Below, one piece after another: positions 47,915 through 55,996 of a DNA stretch of 64,000 bases. The stretch's first letter is position 1; the number at the start of each line of letters is the position of its first letter. The notes under the pieces were generated by a model. The model did no database searches and was not told the origin of the DNA. It saw nothing but the letters and a program-made list of their open reading frames with translations. The DNA comes from Anaeromyxobacter sp. Fw109-5 (GTDB taxonomy: Bacteria > Myxococcota > Myxococcia > Myxococcales > Anaeromyxobacteraceae): assembly GCF_000017505.1 (NCBI RefSeq), contig NC_009675.1, forward strand, positions 992,001-1,056,000. The letters run 5' to 3'. The position numbers and the translations under genes were made by a program.

Positions 47915-48826
47915 CTACGCCGCCGCCACGTCCGCCGCGGGCGGCCGCGGGCGGATCGCGAACGTCCGCAGCGCTGCCTCGCGCAGCACGTCCACCTGGA
48001 GTGGCCGCTGGCCGCCGAGCACCGTCGCCCTCACGAGATCGTCCAGGGTCTCCACGGGCCCTTGCGCGGCGCCGACCACGAGGTCTCCCGCGCGGAGCCC
48101 TGCCGCCTCGGCGGGCGAGCCGGACATCACCTCCATGATGCGCACCGCGCGACCGTGCCCCGCCGCCAGCGCCTCGGCCGGCTCGAGGTCCTCGCCGCGC
48201 GCCGAGATGCCCAGGAAGGGCCGGCGGACCGTGCCCTCGCGGATGAGCACCGAGGCGATCCAGCTCGCGGTGTGCGCCGGGATGGCGAAGCCGATGCCGT
48301 GCGCCCAGGGGAGCATCGCCGTGGTGATCCCGACCACGGCGCCGTGCGCGTCGACGAGCGGCCCGCCGGAGTTGCCGGGGTTCACGGCGGCATCCGTCTG
48401 GACGAGCCCCTCCAGCACCTCCCCGCGCGCTGCGGGGAGGTTGCGGTGCAGCGCCGAGACGACGCCGCTCGTGACCGAGCGCTCGAAGCCGAGCGGGTTC
48501 CCGATGGCGAGCACGAGCTCGCCGACCCGCAGGCGGCGCTCGGCGAGCGTGAGCGCCGGAAGGTCGCGCGCGTCCGCGCGGACCACCGCGAGGTCGGTGC
48601 GCGCGTCCGAGCCGGCGAGCTCTCCCTTCACGGTGCGCGCTCCGGAGAGCCGGACCCGCAGCGGCCCGGGGCCACCGGCCACGTGCGCGTTCGTCAGGAT
48701 CCAGCCGTCCGGGGCCAGCACCACGCCCGAGCCGAGGCCCCGCCGGTGCTCCACCCCCACCACGCCGGGCGAGGCGCGCGCCACGAGCTCGGCGAGCCCG
48801 CTCGACAGCTCCGCGATCGGGATCAC
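47915..48826 (-). CDS. HtrA-like trypsin-fold serine protease with PDZ domain, no signal peptide
   Basis: A 303-residue protease: His48 in ILTNAHVAGG, Asp78 in DARTDLAVV, Ser153 in NPGNSGGPLVD form the complete catalytic triad, with a C-terminal PDZ domain at about 205-290 (AEAAGLRAGDLVVGAAQG). The protein starts IPIAELSSGLAELVARASPG with no signal or membrane segment, so it appears cytosolic unless a start is missed. GTG start overlaps the upstream protease gene by four bases. DegP/DegS relatives are normally exported. Confidence 0.88.
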   Translation of the reverse strand: MIPIAELSSGLAELVARASPGVVGVEHRRGLGSGVVLAPDGWILTNAHVAGGPGPLRVRLSGARTVKGELAGSDARTDLAVVRADARDLPALTLAERRLRVGELVLAIGNPLGFERSVTSGVVSALHRNLPAARGEVLEGLVQTDAAVNPGNSGGPLVDAHGAVVGITTAMLPWAHGIGFAIPAHTASWIASVLIREGTVRRPFLGISARGEDLEPAEALAAGHGRAVRIMEVMSGSPAEAAGLRAGDLVVGAAQGPVETLDDLVRATVLGGQRPLQVDVLREAALRTFAIRPRPPAADVAAA

Positions 48827-49734
48827 GCCGCCCTCCCGTGCCCGCGCGCGCCGACCGTGACCGTCACGTCGCGCACCTCGCCGGCGCGCAGCACCTTCAT
48901 CGGCACGGCGTCGCCGATGCGATCCTCGGCGAGGAGCGCCAGGAGCTCGGACGGATCCTGGAGGGTGTCGCCGCCGAACGAGAGCAGCGCGTCCCCGAGG
49001 AGGATCCCGGCGCGCGCCGCGGGGCTCTCCGGCTCGACCCGCGTGACGAGGAGCGCGACGTGCTCGCCCGTCGCCGCGCGGAGCGGAGCCGGGAGCGAGA
49101 CGGGCAGGGTGGCGAGGCCCAGGTAGCCGCGGCGCACCTCGCCGTGGGCGAGGAGCGACTTCACCACACGTCGAAGCGTCTCCGGCGGGAGGATCATCGC
49201 GCTGCCGCGCACGAGCCCCGAGGAGAGGAGGCCGAGCGGCGCCCCCTTCGCGGACACGGCGAGTCCGCCCGAGACGCCGGGGTGGAGCGGGAGCGTGGTC
49301 TCCAGGAAGCGGTCCACCCGGCCCCCGCGTCCGCCGCGATACTCGCCCGCCGCACGGGCCAGGACGGCGAGCTCCGCCCTGGGGCTCTTGCCCGGCCGCG
49401 TGACGCCCACGACCAGCGCGCCCGGCGCGAGCGCCGCGTCCGACCATGCGGCGGGCGAGAGCCCGGCGCCCCGCACGCGCAGCGCCGCCACGTCGGTGGT
49501 CGGGTCGCGCCCGACCACCGCGGCGACGGCCCTCTCGCCGGACGGCAGGCCGACGTCGATCTCCTCGTCGCGGTCGAGGACGTGGTGGGCGGTGACGACG
49601 ATCCCGTCGGCGGACCAGGCCACTCCGCTCGCGGCGCGGCCGCGGCGCCCCTCGACGCGGACGACGTGCGCCTCCGCGGCGCGGACGAGCGCGGAGAGCT
49701 CGTCGGAGAGGGCGGACAGGGTGACGGGTTCCAT
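48823..49734 (-). CDS. Second HtrA-like serine protease, divergent active-site context, no signal peptide
   Basis: A 303-residue paralogue of the next gene. The triad His51 (VTAHHVLDR), Asp81 (DPTTDVAAL) and Ser155 (HPGVSGGLAVS) is preserved, although the usual GNSGGP is GVSGGL. A PDZ domain follows at about 215-295 (AARAGILLGDALLSFGGD). The start is MEPVTLSALSDELSALVRAA with no export signal. Ser/His context suggests it may be active but with altered specificity or a regulatory role in a heteromer with its partner; this is inference. First gene of a two-gene unit. Confidence 0.82.
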   Translation of the reverse strand: MEPVTLSALSDELSALVRAAEAHVVRVEGRRGRAASGVAWSADGIVVTAHHVLDRDEEIDVGLPSGERAVAAVVGRDPTTDVAALRVRGAGLSPAAWSDAALAPGALVVGVTRPGKSPRAELAVLARAAGEYRGGRGGRVDRFLETTLPLHPGVSGGLAVSAKGAPLGLLSSGLVRGSAMILPPETLRRVVKSLLAHGEVRRGYLGLATLPVSLPAPLRAATGEHVALLVTRVEPESPAARAGILLGDALLSFGGDTLQDPSELLALLAEDRIGDAVPMKVLRAGEVRDVTVTVGARGHGRAA

Positions 49735-49849
49735 GGCTTCTCTCTTTCTTCGCGGGCGTGAACGGTATGCCCGGACGGAAGCCTAGGGAGGAGCACGGCC
49801 CGGCACATCGGCGGGAGGGACGGGAGCCGATCCTGCTCGTATGGCTAGG

Positions 49850-50190
<341 letters not shown>

Positions 50191-50194
50191 GCGG

Positions 50195-50348
50195 TCGAAC
50201 CTCGTCAAGAGGGCAACCTTCACCCACCGCAACGGGAACTCGCAGGGCTCGCAAGAGCTATCGCTGGAGATAGCAACGACTATGAGTGAATGCCGAAGTG
50301 GGCCGAGACGTGCGCGCACCTTCCTCGCACCTGCTCTGCCCGCTGCCC
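50195..50348 (+). repeat. Dispersed repeat R1, copy B
   Basis: Second copy of the 875-1030 element in the same orientation. The hairpin is perfect here: GCTATC (50257-50262), loop GCTGGA, GATAGC (50269-50274). Upstream it is joined to the GGTCGS array, downstream to R2 and the NarL-like gene. On the minus strand it can be read as AISSDSSCEPCEFPLRW followed by the repeat-coded Asp-Arg/Asp-Pro run. Confidence 0.75.
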
Positions 50349-51254: not shown

Positions 51255-51773
51255 ATGGCCGAGGATCCGAGGGAAGCGGCGGAGCGCAAGGCGCAGGCGC
51301 GGGTCGAGGAGATGGGCGGCGCGGAGGCGGCGCGGGCGCTCCTGCGGGCGGAGAAGGCGGCGGTGCTCACGACGCTCTCGCAGCGGAGGCCGGGCTGGCC
51401 GTCCGCCTCGCTCGTGCCTTACGCGCTCGGCGAGAGCGGCGAGCCCATCCTGCTCCTCTCCGCCATCGCGCAGCACACGCGCAACCTGGAGGCGGATCCG
51501 CGCGCGTGCGTGTTCGTGCACGACGCGGCGGCCGCGGCGAAGGACGCCCGCACCGCCCCGCGGCTCGCGGTCTACGGCACGGTGTCGGTGATCGAGGGCG
51601 CCGCCGAGGCGGACGCGAAGGCGGCGTACCTCGCGCGCCATCCGGACGCGCGCGGCCTGCTCGGCCTCGACTTCAAGCTCTATCGCCTCGCCGTGGAGGA
51701 GGCGCAGTGGGTGGGCGGCTTCGCCGCCGCCGGCTGGCTCACCCCGGCCGATCTCCTCGGGCCTGGCGCCTGA
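51255..51773 (+). CDS. Pyridoxamine-phosphate-oxidase-fold / HugZ-like flavoprotein
   Basis: A 172-residue split-barrel protein: AALLRAEKAAVLTTLSQRRP, ASLVPYALGESGEPILLLSA, IAQHTRNLEADPRACVFVHD are the FMN-binding barrel strands seen in HugZ-type heme-degrading and related proteins. The C-terminal DUF2470 domain of full HugZ proteins is missing, so a heme role is not certain. ATG at 51255 with GGGGGGAGAACGCG upstream. Convergent with the SUI1-like gene; no operon. Confidence 0.78.
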   Translation: MAEDPREAAERKAQARVEEMGGAEAARALLRAEKAAVLTTLSQRRPGWPSASLVPYALGESGEPILLLSAIAQHTRNLEADPRACVFVHDAAAAAKDARTAPRLAVYGTVSVIEGAAEADAKAAYLARHPDARGLLGLDFKLYRLAVEEAQWVGGFAAAGWLTPADLLGPGA

Positions 51774-51833: not shown

Positions 51834-52232
51834 CTACCCGGCGACGACCTTCCGTACCCCCTTCGCCTCGAGCCATCGCCGGGCGCGCTCGCGCTGGTCA
51901 CCCTGCAGCGCGATGGCGTCCCCCTCGACGGCGCCGCCGCAGCCGAGGGCGCGCTTCAGCTCGTCCGCCCAGGCGCGCAGCGTCGCGGGGGCGAGCTCGA
52001 GCTTCTCGACGACGGTGGCCTCCTTGCCGCCGCGCCCCTTGCGCTCGAGGCGCACCACCGCGCGCGCCGGTCCCTTCGCCGGGACCGGCGCAGCGACCGC
52101 CGCGGGCCCCGGGGTCGCCTCGTCCTGCGGCGGCCCACCCTCCGGCAGCCGCTCCCTCAGCCGCGCGAACGCCGCGTTGAACGGCCCTTCCGGCGCCGCG
52201 GGCCGGTCTTCGTCCCGAGCTCTCTTGCCCAT
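51834..52232 (-). CDS. SUI1/eIF1-like (YciH-type) translation factor
   Basis: A 132-residue protein with a variable Pro/Ala N-terminus and a SUI1 domain at about 55-130 (VVRLERKGRGGKEATVVEKL, TLRAWADELKRALGCGGAVE, IALQGDQRERARRWLEAKGV). Bacterial YciH relatives bind the ribosomal P-site region and influence start-codon choice. GGAGGG lies 5 bases before the ATG at 52232, so the start inside the tfuA gene is well supported; the two genes overlap by 76 bases in different frames. Last gene of the ycaO-tfuA operon. Confidence 0.87.
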   Translation of the reverse strand: MGKRARDEDRPAAPEGPFNAAFARLRERLPEGGPPQDEATPGPAAVAAPVPAKGPARAVVRLERKGRGGKEATVVEKLELAPATLRAWADELKRALGCGGAVEGDAIALQGDQRERARRWLEAKGVRKVVAG

Positions 52233-53392
52233 CGCGACCCTCCGCGCTCGCCCGCCGCGAGCGCCTCCTCGATCCACGCTCCCGAGAGCCGGGCCGCGAG
52301 CGCCAGCCCCTCCTCCCACGACGGCCCGTCGGGAACCATTCGGGCGGCCCCGTCGAGCAGCCGCGCCTCGAGCGCGAGCTCCTCGCCGAGCCGCCGCGCC
52401 GCCCCTGCGTCGAGCCCGCACGCCGCGAGGAACGCCTCGCGCCGGCTGGCCGGCACGCTCGCGCGCGCGAGCCAGGCGGCGAGGGCCGCCTCCGCCTCGC
52501 CAGCGGCCGGGGCGAGGCCGAGCGACCGCGCGAGCCCCGCGACGACGAGGCGCCGCAGGCCGTCGGCCGCGAGCGCCCCCGCGTCGCGCCGGCGCGCGAG
52601 CGCGCGCAGCACCTCGCCCGAGGCGAGCTCGCGCCCGCCGGGCAGGATCGCCGTGGCGCGCTCGAGCCGCGCGCGGCGCACGTGCGACGGCACGGGGAAG
52701 CCTGGGCCGGGGAGCGCCGGGGCGCCCGCGCGGCGCGCCCGGACGAACGCGCCGGCCGCCTCGACGCAGGCGCGCGCGTCCGCGGCCTTCGGATCCGCCG
52801 CTCGCGGCAGGAAGGCCTCGAGCCGCGCGCGCGCGCCGTCTCCGAGCGCGGCCGCCTCGAGCACCCGGGGCCAGGTCCGCTCCGTGTAGTGGATCGCCTC
52901 CGCCCCCGCGACGACGGCGCGCGCCTCGCCCGGGCGCAGCAGCCGCCCGGCGCGGGCCGCCTCCGCGGCGGCGCGCACCGCCACGAGCGGCACGGTGAGG
53001 GGCCGGAAGCCGTGCGCGGCGTCCCCGTGGAGGAGGGCCACCTCGGAGTCGTCCTCGAGCGCTCCGTCGCGATAGGCGCGGAAGATCGCGCCCACTCCCA
53101 CCACCCCGTGGCGCTCCAGCTCCGCCGCGCGGAGCGCCCCCATGCTGGCGCCCCCGAAGACCGCCACGCCCGCGTCGAGCGCGGCGAGCAGCTCGTGGTG
53201 CCAGACGGACGGGGTCGTGTCGAAGAGGCCGTCGACGAGCGCGATGGCGAGCGGGCGGGCCGGGAGCACGGCGAGGACGTCGCCCGCCCGCGCGGGCGGG
53301 AGCACGCGGCACGGCGCGAGCCGCCGGGCCTCGGCCGGAGGGAGGGACGGGCCGAGGAAGACGACGAGGTCGTCCCTGCGGGCGCGGGTCAC
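52157..53392 (-). CDS. tfuA: TfuA-like core domain protein
   Basis: A 411-residue protein with the TfuA core in its first 200 residues: DLVVFLGPSLPPAEARRL, ALVDGLFDTTPSVWHHELLA, VFGGASMGALRAAELERHGV, GAIFRAYRDGALEDDSEVAL and HGDAAHGFRPLTVPLVA. TfuA proteins assist YcaO enzymes, for example in making backbone thioamides. The remaining 200 residues are helical and Ala/Arg-rich, a long extension. GTG start overlaps the ycaO stop by four bases. The order ycaO-tfuA is the usual one. Confidence 0.9.
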   Translation of the reverse strand: MTRARRDDLVVFLGPSLPPAEARRLAPCRVLPPARAGDVLAVLPARPLAIALVDGLFDTTPSVWHHELLAALDAGVAVFGGASMGALRAAELERHGVVGVGAIFRAYRDGALEDDSEVALLHGDAAHGFRPLTVPLVAVRAAAEAARAGRLLRPGEARAVVAGAEAIHYTERTWPRVLEAAALGDGARARLEAFLPRAADPKAADARACVEAAGAFVRARRAGAPALPGPGFPVPSHVRRARLERATAILPGGRELASGEVLRALARRRDAGALAADGLRRLVVAGLARSLGLAPAAGEAEAALAAWLARASVPASRREAFLAACGLDAGAARRLGEELALEARLLDGAARMVPDGPSWEEGLALAARLSGAWIEEALAAGERGGSRWARELGTKTGPRRRKGRSTRRSRG

Positions 53393-54528
53393 AGGAGCTC
53401 CGAGCAGGCGAAGCCGGGGACGAGCACCTTCACCACGTGCACGCCGGCGGGGGCGTCCAGCGCGACCGCCACCGCCCGCTCGACGGCGGCGCGCCGGAGC
53501 CGGGAGAGGACGGCGCGCGCGCCGGCTGCGGCGCCGCCCTCGCGGGAGGTGCGCCCCTCGGGCATGCGCCCCGCGTCGCGCCGGGGTCGCGTCGCCGCGA
53601 GCAGCGCGGCGAGGCCGGCCGCCGCGTGGCGGTCTCCGAGCGCGACGTCCTCGCGGGCGCCGTGGATCTCGGTCGCGCGAGACTGCGCCGCCTCGAGGAG
53701 CGCGGCGAGGAGCGCGTCGTCGCGGCCGAGCCGGCAGGCGTAGCCGGCCGAGAGGGGGACCGGGCCCAGCGCGTGGTCCACGAGCACGGCGGCGGCGCAG
53801 GGTAGCGCGGCGCCGCCGCTCGACTCGTCGCCCGAGGCGTCGAGGAGGTGCACCCCGAAGCCGCGCTCCTCCAGGCGCACGGCGAGCGCCCCGGCCCGCG
53901 GGGCCGCGCGCGCGAGGGACCGGCGGTCGAGCAGCCGCGCCGCGAGGGCCTCCTCCGTGAACCCCTCCGGCAGCGCGCGCGCGAGGAGGTCGCGCTCGGT
54001 CACCTCCAGCAGCGCGTGCAGGAGCGCCGCCGCGAGGTCCTCGTGCGCCCCCATCCCGTTCGATGTCCACGGCACCAGGGCCGGCCCGAGCAGCGGCCCC
54101 CCCGCGGGCGGGCAATGGACGGCGCACGCCGGGACGAAGGCGAGGTCGCCGCCGAGGAGATCCTGCCCGGCTCGCCAGCCGAGGCGCAGCGACGCCCAGC
54201 CCGGCTCGGCCTCCCCGGGCGCGAGGGCGTCCGGCGGCACCAGGACGCCGGCGCCGTGGCGCGTGGCCAGCCCGGCGGCGCTGTCCCACACGTCGACCAC
54301 GGCGCGCTCGGCGGCCCACAGCTCGGTCGCCTCGAGCAGCGCGCCGGCGGTGGCGTCCGCGAAGGACGCCCCCTTGCCGTTCGTGACCTGGAGGACGTGC
54401 GCGCCCGGCCGGATCGCGCTCGCGACCTCCACGCCGGTGCGGTCGAGGCCCGTGAGGCGCGCGACGCGGGTCACGCCGAGCTGTTCGGCGAGGGAGCCGT
54501 CCCGAAGGGGACGGGGGGCTGTGGGCAT
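53389..54528 (-). CDS. ycaO: YcaO-domain peptide-modifying enzyme
   Basis: A 379-residue YcaO enzyme that uses ATP to activate peptide backbone amides. ATP-binding motifs are seen in [40 protein letters not shown] followed by TERD, and [19 protein letters not shown]. With TfuA it would make a thioamide by analogy with methanogen and RiPP systems; the substrate is unknown. No small precursor gene lies in the 64-base divergent gap or downstream. It ends SELL, without the proline-rich tail of azoline-forming YcaO enzymes. Start at 54528 is just after a TATAAA box, giving an apparently leaderless mRNA. Confidence 0.9.
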
Positions 54529-54592: not shown

Positions 54593-55996
54593 ATGTCGGA
54601 GAGCCCGGTCGAGCTGGCGCTCGCCCATTACGAGAAGAACGCCGCCATCTACCTCGACGAGCTGAAGCGGCTCGTCCGCATCCCGAGCGTCTCCTTCTCC
54701 GGGTTCCCGGAGATCGAGGTGGGGCGGAGCGCCGACGCGGTCGCGGAGCTCCTGCGCCGGCGCGGCTTCGAGAAGGTGGAGGTGCTCAAGGTCGAGGGGG
54801 CCCACCCCTACGTGTTCGGCGAGCGGATCGAGGACCCGTCCGCGCCGACGCTCCTCCTGTACGCCCACCACGACGTGCAGCCGCCCGGCGAGACCGAGCT
54901 GTGGAAGTCCGCGCCGTTCGAGCCGGTCGAGCGCGACGGCCGGCTCTTCGGGCGGGGCGCCGCCGACGACAAGGCCGGCATCCTCGTCCACGCGGCGGCG
55001 GTGGACGCCTGGGTGCGCGGCGCGCGCAAGATGCCGCTCAACGTGAAGATCGTGGTGGAGGGCGAGGAGGAGATCGGCTCGGAGCACCTCGCCGCGTTCA
55101 TCGGCCGCTACCGCTCCAGGCTGGACGCCGACGCGATGGTGCTCACCGACACCGGCAACGTGGACGTCGGGCTGCCCTCGGTGACCATCGCCCTGCGCGG
55201 CCTCGTGACCGCGGACGTCGAGGTGCGCGCGCTCGAGCAGAGCCTGCACTCCGGCATGTGGGGCGGGCCGGTGCCCGACGCCACCATGGCGCTCGCGAAG
55301 ATGCTCGCCGGGCTCGTCGACCGCGACGGGCGCATCGCCATCCGGGGGATCTACGACAGGGTCCGGCCGATGACGCGCGAGCAGCGGCGCGCCATCGAGC
55401 AGCTCCCCGTCACCGTGGAGGAGTTCAGGAAGCAGGCGCGGCTGCGCCCCGGCGTGCAGCTCCTCGGCGGGAACCATCCGCTCGAGGTGAACTGGTGGGA
55501 GCCCTCGCTGGCGGTGAACGCCATCCAGGCGTCGTCGCGCAAGGACGCCCGCAACATCATCAACGACGTGGCCTGGGCGCGCGTCGGGATCCGCCTCGTC
55601 CCCGACATGGATCCCGCCGAGGTGCGCGACGCGCTGGTCGCGCACCTCCGGGCGGCGGCGCCCTGGGGCGTGGAGGTGAGCGTCAAGATCGAGTCGGCGG
55701 GCGCGCCGTGGATCACGGACGTGAACCACCCCGTGTTCGGCGCGGCGTTCCGCGCGCTCGAGAAGGGCTTCGGCCGGCAGGCGCTGGCGATCGGCTGCGG
55801 CGGCTCGATCGGCTTCGTGCAGCCCTTCGCCGACGCGCTCGGGGGCGTGCCCGCGCTCCTCATCGGCGTGGAGGACCCCGCCTCGAACGCCCACTCCGAG
55901 AACGAGAGCCTCCACCTCGGCGACTTCCAGCGGGCGATCCGCAGCGCCATCCACCTCTACGCGGAGCTGGCCTCGGCGCTGCCGGCGAAGGGGTAG
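54593..55996 (+). CDS. M20-family dipeptidase
   Basis: A 467-residue zinc peptidase of the carnosinase-like M20 group. Metal ligands are in [11 protein letters not shown] (His, Asp), [11 protein letters not shown] (Asp with catalytic Asp in HHDVQ), [11 protein letters not shown] (catalytic Glu-Glu) and the C-terminal [15 protein letters not shown] (His). The dimerisation lid sits at about 200-320 ([20 protein letters not shown]). It cleaves dipeptides in the cytosol. GAGGAG precedes the ATG. Divergent from ycaO; a functional link is not shown. Confidence 0.93.

Follow-up and report, generated by a model that had tools for sequence, protein, structure and literature searches.

Which molecule is modified by a YcaO-TfuA enzyme pair that has no precursor peptide gene next to it? 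The question is raised by a locus in a stretch of 64,000 nucleotides (nt) from the genome of Anaeromyxobacter sp. Fw109-5, which is referred to here as the window and within which all positions are counted. On the minus strand of the window a ycaO gene (ATG at 54528, stop at 53389; 379 amino acids (aa)) is followed by a tfuA gene (GTG at 53392, stop at 52157; 411 aa) and by a gene for a SUI1/YciH-like protein (ATG at 52232, stop at 51834; 132 aa). The reading that we favour, and to which we give about an even chance, is that ycaO and tfuA form an orphan pair for TfuA-dependent backbone thioamidation, that the pair is inherited in the Myxococcales, and that it acts on an unlinked substrate, most likely a cellular protein common to the order.

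The YcaO and TfuA proteins

The original prediction, made from the DNA letters of the locus, had identified the products of the three genes as YcaO, TfuA and a SUI1-like translation factor, and all three assignments were borne out, each protein scoring above the cut-off of the corresponding Pfam family. The YcaO protein matched PF02624 with 173 bits (cut-off 25.7; E 1.4e-50) over profile positions 1-324 of 325. The YcaO domain, located at residues 50-373 of the 379-aa protein, stands alone, and the protein is the sole YcaO of its genome. When the AlphaFold2 model (mean predicted local distance difference test score (pLDDT) 86) was compared with solved structures, the top match was the structure of the methanogen YcaO MJ1094 that contains a peptide (6peu; Z 35.4 over 340 residues), and further matches were found with thioamide-forming methanogen YcaOs (6pe3, Z 33.7; 6cib, Z 31.7), that of M. 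kandleri being at 31.7. Cyclodehydratases and other YcaOs of ribosomally synthesized and post-translationally modified peptide (RiPP) pathways lay below the methanogen enzymes (Z 24-30), and of the solved YcaOs that of E. coli matched least well (Z 22.6-23.1). The presumed ATP/Mg residues E66, E69, E175, E178, R179, E279, Q282 and R284 were invariant in 14 genomes, as were S376, L378 and L379 of the C-terminal Ser-x-Leu-Leu. In the YcaO family the conserved ATP/Mg-binding glutamates and arginine have a catalytic role.

The TfuA protein matched PF07812 with 137.2 bits (cut-off 30; E 2.9e-40), the domain forming the N-terminal part of the protein at about residues 7-220. Likeness to the TfuA of M. 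acetivorans (6xp8) was detectable at the sequence level (E 1.3e-29) and in the model (Z 29.2, root-mean-square deviation 1.5 Å, 212 residues); the named matches, at 85-86% identity, were the TfuA proteins of A. soli and A. terrae. Towards the C-terminus most members also carry a helical region about 190 residues long (from about residue 225 or 230 to 400; window 52190-52720), which is not part of the archaeal protein 6xp8 and for which no Pfam match and no curated family was found. This region may be a substrate- or carrier-binding part of the enzyme. The C-terminal region is possibly dispensable, as the TfuA called in genus g2 has a length of only about 190-230 aa. A weak Foldseek match of the region to a SurA-like chaperone (E 2.2) was not used, and the structure comparison with 6xp8 barely covered this part of the protein.

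In its make-up the pair resembles the methanogen YcaO-TfuA system of McrA-glycine thioamidation (M. acetivorans, MJ1094; PMC5589413): the two genes are the same, they stand in the same order with overlapping stop and start codons, no precursor is linked to them, inheritance is largely vertical, and the best structural matches of both proteins lie there. The myxobacterial system differs by the additional TfuA region present in most of its members, and by the fact that an McrA substrate is neither known nor expected in these bacteria. The organisms from which McrA is known are archaea that produce or oxidise methane. Both proteins stayed below the cut-offs of the McrA-type equivalogs of NCBIfam (TIGR03266, NF033432), YcaO with 104.9 versus 365 bits and TfuA with 169.4 versus 235.2 bits.

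These likenesses suggest that the product in Anaeromyxobacter is a thioamide. In the mechanism that we propose, an amide oxygen in the backbone of the substrate would be phosphorylated by YcaO at the expense of ATP, TfuA would release sulfide from a ThiS-type thiocarboxylated carrier, and the sulfide would replace the activated oxygen to give the thioamide (+16 Da). The substrate would be a cellular protein whose gene lies at another site in the genome, comparable to McrA of methanogens or to uL16, the target of E. coli YcaO. TfuA has been reported to use a ThiS-type sulfur carrier (PMC13063428); three ThiS-family genes are present in the genome.

Genomic neighbourhoods and search for a precursor gene

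The stop codon of ycaO and the GTG start of tfuA overlap by 4 nt (53389..53392, minus strand), as seen in the sequence and the translations, and the 3' end of tfuA overlaps the 5' end of the SUI1 gene by 76 nt (52157..52232, minus strand), a segment that encodes the basic TfuA tail of the focal clade. Both overlaps had been described in the original prediction, and the coordinates agree. The genes are presumably co-transcribed. The block is bordered upstream by a divergent M20 peptidase gene (54593..55996, plus strand; PF01546, E 1e-30), which begins 64 nt from ycaO, and downstream by a convergent PNPOx/CREG-like gene (51255..51773, plus strand; PF13883, E 3e-19; PF01243, E 3.4e-14), which lies 60 nt from the SUI1 gene. 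As the flanking gaps measure just 64 and 60 nt, there is no room for a linked precursor gene on either side of the block. No RNA families were found in the ycaO-tfuA locus.

The ycaO, tfuA and SUI1 genes all recur in relatives, and the ycaO-tfuA pair was found in at least three conserved and mutually unrelated neighbourhoods. In Anaeromyxobacteraceae it is flanked by an M20 peptidase/phosphorylase block on one side and by various genes on the other (synteny with the M20 peptidase gene being restricted to this family), in Myxococcaceae by a peroxiredoxin or small-protein cluster and by a kinase gene, and in family f7 by genes for a histidine kinase and for an M3-type peptidase. Apart from ycaO and tfuA, no gene was common to all three, and in the gene calls the neighbours of the standalone pair had no transporter, LanB/LanC or further tailoring gene in common. 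Among the small open reading frames (ORFs) located in gaps within 4 kb of the pair in the three neighbourhoods, none was conserved beyond very close relatives. Those that recurred did so only between pairs of close relatives and often in several frames simultaneously, which indicates plain DNA similarity and no precursor signal. The claim that no small peptide gene adjoins the pair was thus confirmed for the window and extended to the relatives, in which no RiPP precursor was found among the gap ORFs within the same distance. For the relatives on plasmids (Paracoccus, Sinorhizobium, Indioceanicola) the annotated context was uninformative.

Distribution and inheritance of the pair

TfuA was present in 34 of 60 relatives and, in the whole phylum (Myxococcota), in 108 of 193 genomes, all but two of which belong to the same order, Myxococcales. 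The 29 standalone TfuAs were all on one side of a branch (support 99) that separates them from the 31 other Myxococcota TfuAs included in the comparison. In Mantel comparisons with ribosomal-protein distances rho was 0.55 for YcaO and 0.57 for TfuA (p = 2e-4), and 0.73 between YcaO and TfuA. The YcaO tree recovered Myxococcaceae (f4) and a group consisting of Anaeromyxobacter plus genus g5 with strong support, and family f7 only partly; across the order YcaO identity levels off at 54-60%. Inheritance of the pair agrees broadly with the tree of ribosomal proteins in the Myxococcales. Taken together, a single clade, congruence with the species tree and the occurrence in at least three unrelated neighbourhoods suggest that the substrate is encoded elsewhere in the genome. 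On the 46-genome tree the presence of the pair requires at least six changes, thus it must have been repeatedly lost or occasionally moved.

Several observations weigh against a conserved cellular protein as the substrate of a vertically inherited pair. The deep nodes of the YcaO and TfuA gene trees lack resolution, which leaves room for some horizontal transfer. The pair is absent from several lineages (it was not found in genus g6 and in f2, f5, f6 and f8), and the modification must therefore be dispensable. Finally, the divergence of YcaO and TfuA is faster than one would expect with a housekeeping substrate: within the genus YcaO identity was 62% where that of uL16 was 95% (genome G002), and the within-genus ratio of nonsynonymous to synonymous substitution rates (dN/dS) of ycaO was 0.31-0.51 as compared to 0.11-0.23 for the phosphorylase gene.

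Two of the 31 TfuAs outside the standalone clade had their gene neighbours examined. In genome G047 (contig 11, 1456-8215) a YcaO-TfuA pair lies beside LanB-type dehydratase-like and LanC-type cyclase-like genes, and this locus is likely a thioamitide-like RiPP cluster; the same genome also has the standalone pair. In a Myxococcaceae genome (G058, contig 4, 8457-18982) two divergent ycaO-tfuA pairs are separated by a kinase gene and small proteins, which is possibly an uncharacterised thioamidated peptide cluster.

Peptide or protein as the substrate

The strongest competitor of a cellular protein is a small precursor peptide encoded at an unlinked site, in which case the pair would be an orphan RiPP maturase, and its product a natural product that carries a thioamide and is conserved across the order. 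This is a serious alternative, to which we assign roughly half the weight of the favoured reading. The majority of described bacterial YcaO-TfuA pairs serve RiPPs (PMC8120280), a related but distinct TfuA of the same phylum (G047, contig 11) adjoins LanB/LanC-like genes, and the fairly fast divergence of YcaO and TfuA would suit a natural product pathway. With the pairs of thioamitide, thiovarsolin and trifolitoxin-type systems the standalone pair shares the two enzymes and presumably the chemistry. It differs from them in that the RiPP pairs have linked precursors and tailoring genes, whereas the standalone pair has neither a conserved precursor-sized ORF in the three neighbourhoods nor a shared transporter, LanB/LanC or tailoring gene in the gene calls; moreover, its TfuAs are separate from the 31 other TfuAs of the phylum and track the species tree.

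That the target is a protein and not an unlinked peptide we infer from the inheritance pattern, from the lack of shared tailoring or export genes and from the methanogen precedent (PMC5589413). A housekeeping protein as the target, in the manner of McrA in methanogens, had also been put forward in the original prediction, and the pair probably does act on something encoded elsewhere. By the account in PMC13063428, McrA and uL16 are the only proteins known to be thioamidated by YcaO enzymes. The more specific proposition that a bacterial YcaO-TfuA pair with a wide distribution in the Myxococcales thioamidates a cellular protein other than these two is one that we put a shade below an even chance. 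If true, it would be the first bacterial case of TfuA-dependent thioamidation of a protein rather than a peptide. A pair that lacks a precursor and is inherited across the Myxococcales, an order with genetically tractable species, points towards an additional protein substrate. For genome mining, a YcaO-TfuA pair by itself is no marker of a RiPP cluster. In the literature searched no description of the Anaeromyxobacter YcaO or of the myxobacterial standalone pair was found, which is no proof of absence.

The SUI1/YciH gene and a possible ribosomal target

From the tie to a ribosome-binding factor the original prediction had guessed at a ribosomal or translation-associated target. The distribution of the SUI1 gene does not sustain this argument. 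The SUI1-like protein matched PF01253 with 53 bits (cut-off 25.5; E 4.7e-14), its best NCBIfam model was YciH, and it was similar to the structure of E. coli YciH (1d1r, E 1.1e-12). It contains the ordinary YciH motif GCGGAV...QGD in a domain without unusual insertion, and is thus a normal member of the YciH / eIF1-like SUI1 proteins. The gene was present in 43 of 60 relatives, usually in one copy, and the majority of genomes in the order have just one. Linkage to ycaO-tfuA is lacking in most Myxococcales, the gene being mostly on another contig or megabases away (e.g. at 2.79 versus 7.58 Mb in genome G050).

The three-gene order was only partly conserved in relatives. Leaving aside G003, G004 and G012, in which the contig ends at the locus, SUI1 adjoins tfuA in genera g1 and g3 and in one g4 genome, all belonging to Anaeromyxobacteraceae, and adjacency was absent in g2 (G009), in g5 (G017), in G016 and in the readable genomes of Myxococcaceae, f7 and f9. 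Even where the two genes are adjacent the overlap varies: it measures 76 nt in the window and 73 nt in A. soli/G006, and the values for the remaining genomes are 4, 1 or -20 nt according to which start codon is assumed. The long overlap thus reflects a lineage-specific extension of the tfuA tail. In genus g6 of the same family three genomes have SUI1 and neither YcaO nor TfuA, and SUI1 without the pair occurs in other lineages too. The original prediction had itself named non-conserved adjacency as evidence against its proposal, and outside part of Anaeromyxobacteraceae this is largely what was seen. SUI1 was therefore rejected as a general guide to the substrate. It looks like an ordinary translation gene that was placed downstream of the pair in part of one family, its location says little about the substrate, and it is not counted within the thioamidation module.

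A weak positive hint comes from co-occurrence in the phylum, which is one-way: SUI1 was found in 104 of 108 TfuA-bearing genomes versus 31 of 85 without TfuA. Small-genome lineages lose both genes. On the tree three independent pairs support the association and none opposes it (3:0, p = 0.25), a number too small for a decision.

This co-occurrence and the adjacency in three genera could be explained if the pair acted on a ribosomal or translation protein such as uL16, as the E. coli YcaO does in spite of having no TfuA, the SUI1 neighbour reflecting that role. E. coli YcaO thioamidates Met82 of uL16, likewise without a linked precursor (PMC13063428), and supplies the analogy of a cellular protein as substrate; furthermore, because the Anaeromyxobacter genome has no second YcaO, there is no competing enzyme for uL16. 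Suspected uL16-modifying YcaOs are reported to have no TfuA nearby, a conserved acidic YcaO has been proposed for them, and the E. coli enzyme has an additional tetratricopeptide repeat (TPR) domain of about 150 residues (PMC13063428). In contrast, the enzyme studied here has a TfuA partner, lacks the TPR domain, is structurally farthest from E. coli YcaO (Z about 23) among the solved YcaOs, and is not consistently acidic, its isoelectric point being 5.96 in the window and ranging from about 5 to 11 across relatives. With the EcYcaO equivalog NF040716 it reached 16.4 bits versus a cut-off of 700. YcaO also diverges far faster than ribosomal proteins. The uL16 loop (RMG or RQG) is identical with or without the pair and is uninformative as a test. 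Taking into account that SUI1 adjacency is confined to one family, a uL16-like target is not supported, and we consider it improbable, more so than an unlinked peptide.

The adjoining SUI1/YciH protein could itself be the substrate, as the overlapping co-directional genes in several Anaeromyxobacteraceae and the one-way co-occurrence might suggest; with SUI1 persisting without YcaO and TfuA in g6 and other lineages, unlinked in other families, and ordinary in motif and domain, this is very improbable. Formation of azolines or another product of amide activation, instead of thioamides, deserves equally little credence: the YcaO family has several chemistries and the product is unreadable from sequence, but the partner here is TfuA and not a cyclodehydratase partner, and the nearest folds are those of thioamide-forming methanogen YcaOs.

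Other features of the window

In another part of the window two neighbouring ORFs for trypsin-like/PDZ proteases of the HtrA/DegP type are located on the minus strand (47915-50254 and 48823-49734). The two HtrA-like protease genes are adjoined by a hexanucleotide array of 55 copies (49856-50197; unit GGGGTC, 85% matches). Translation of the array gives Asp-Pro/Arg-Pro repeats in one frame, and Gly-Val/Gly-Ser/Ser-Arg repeats in others.
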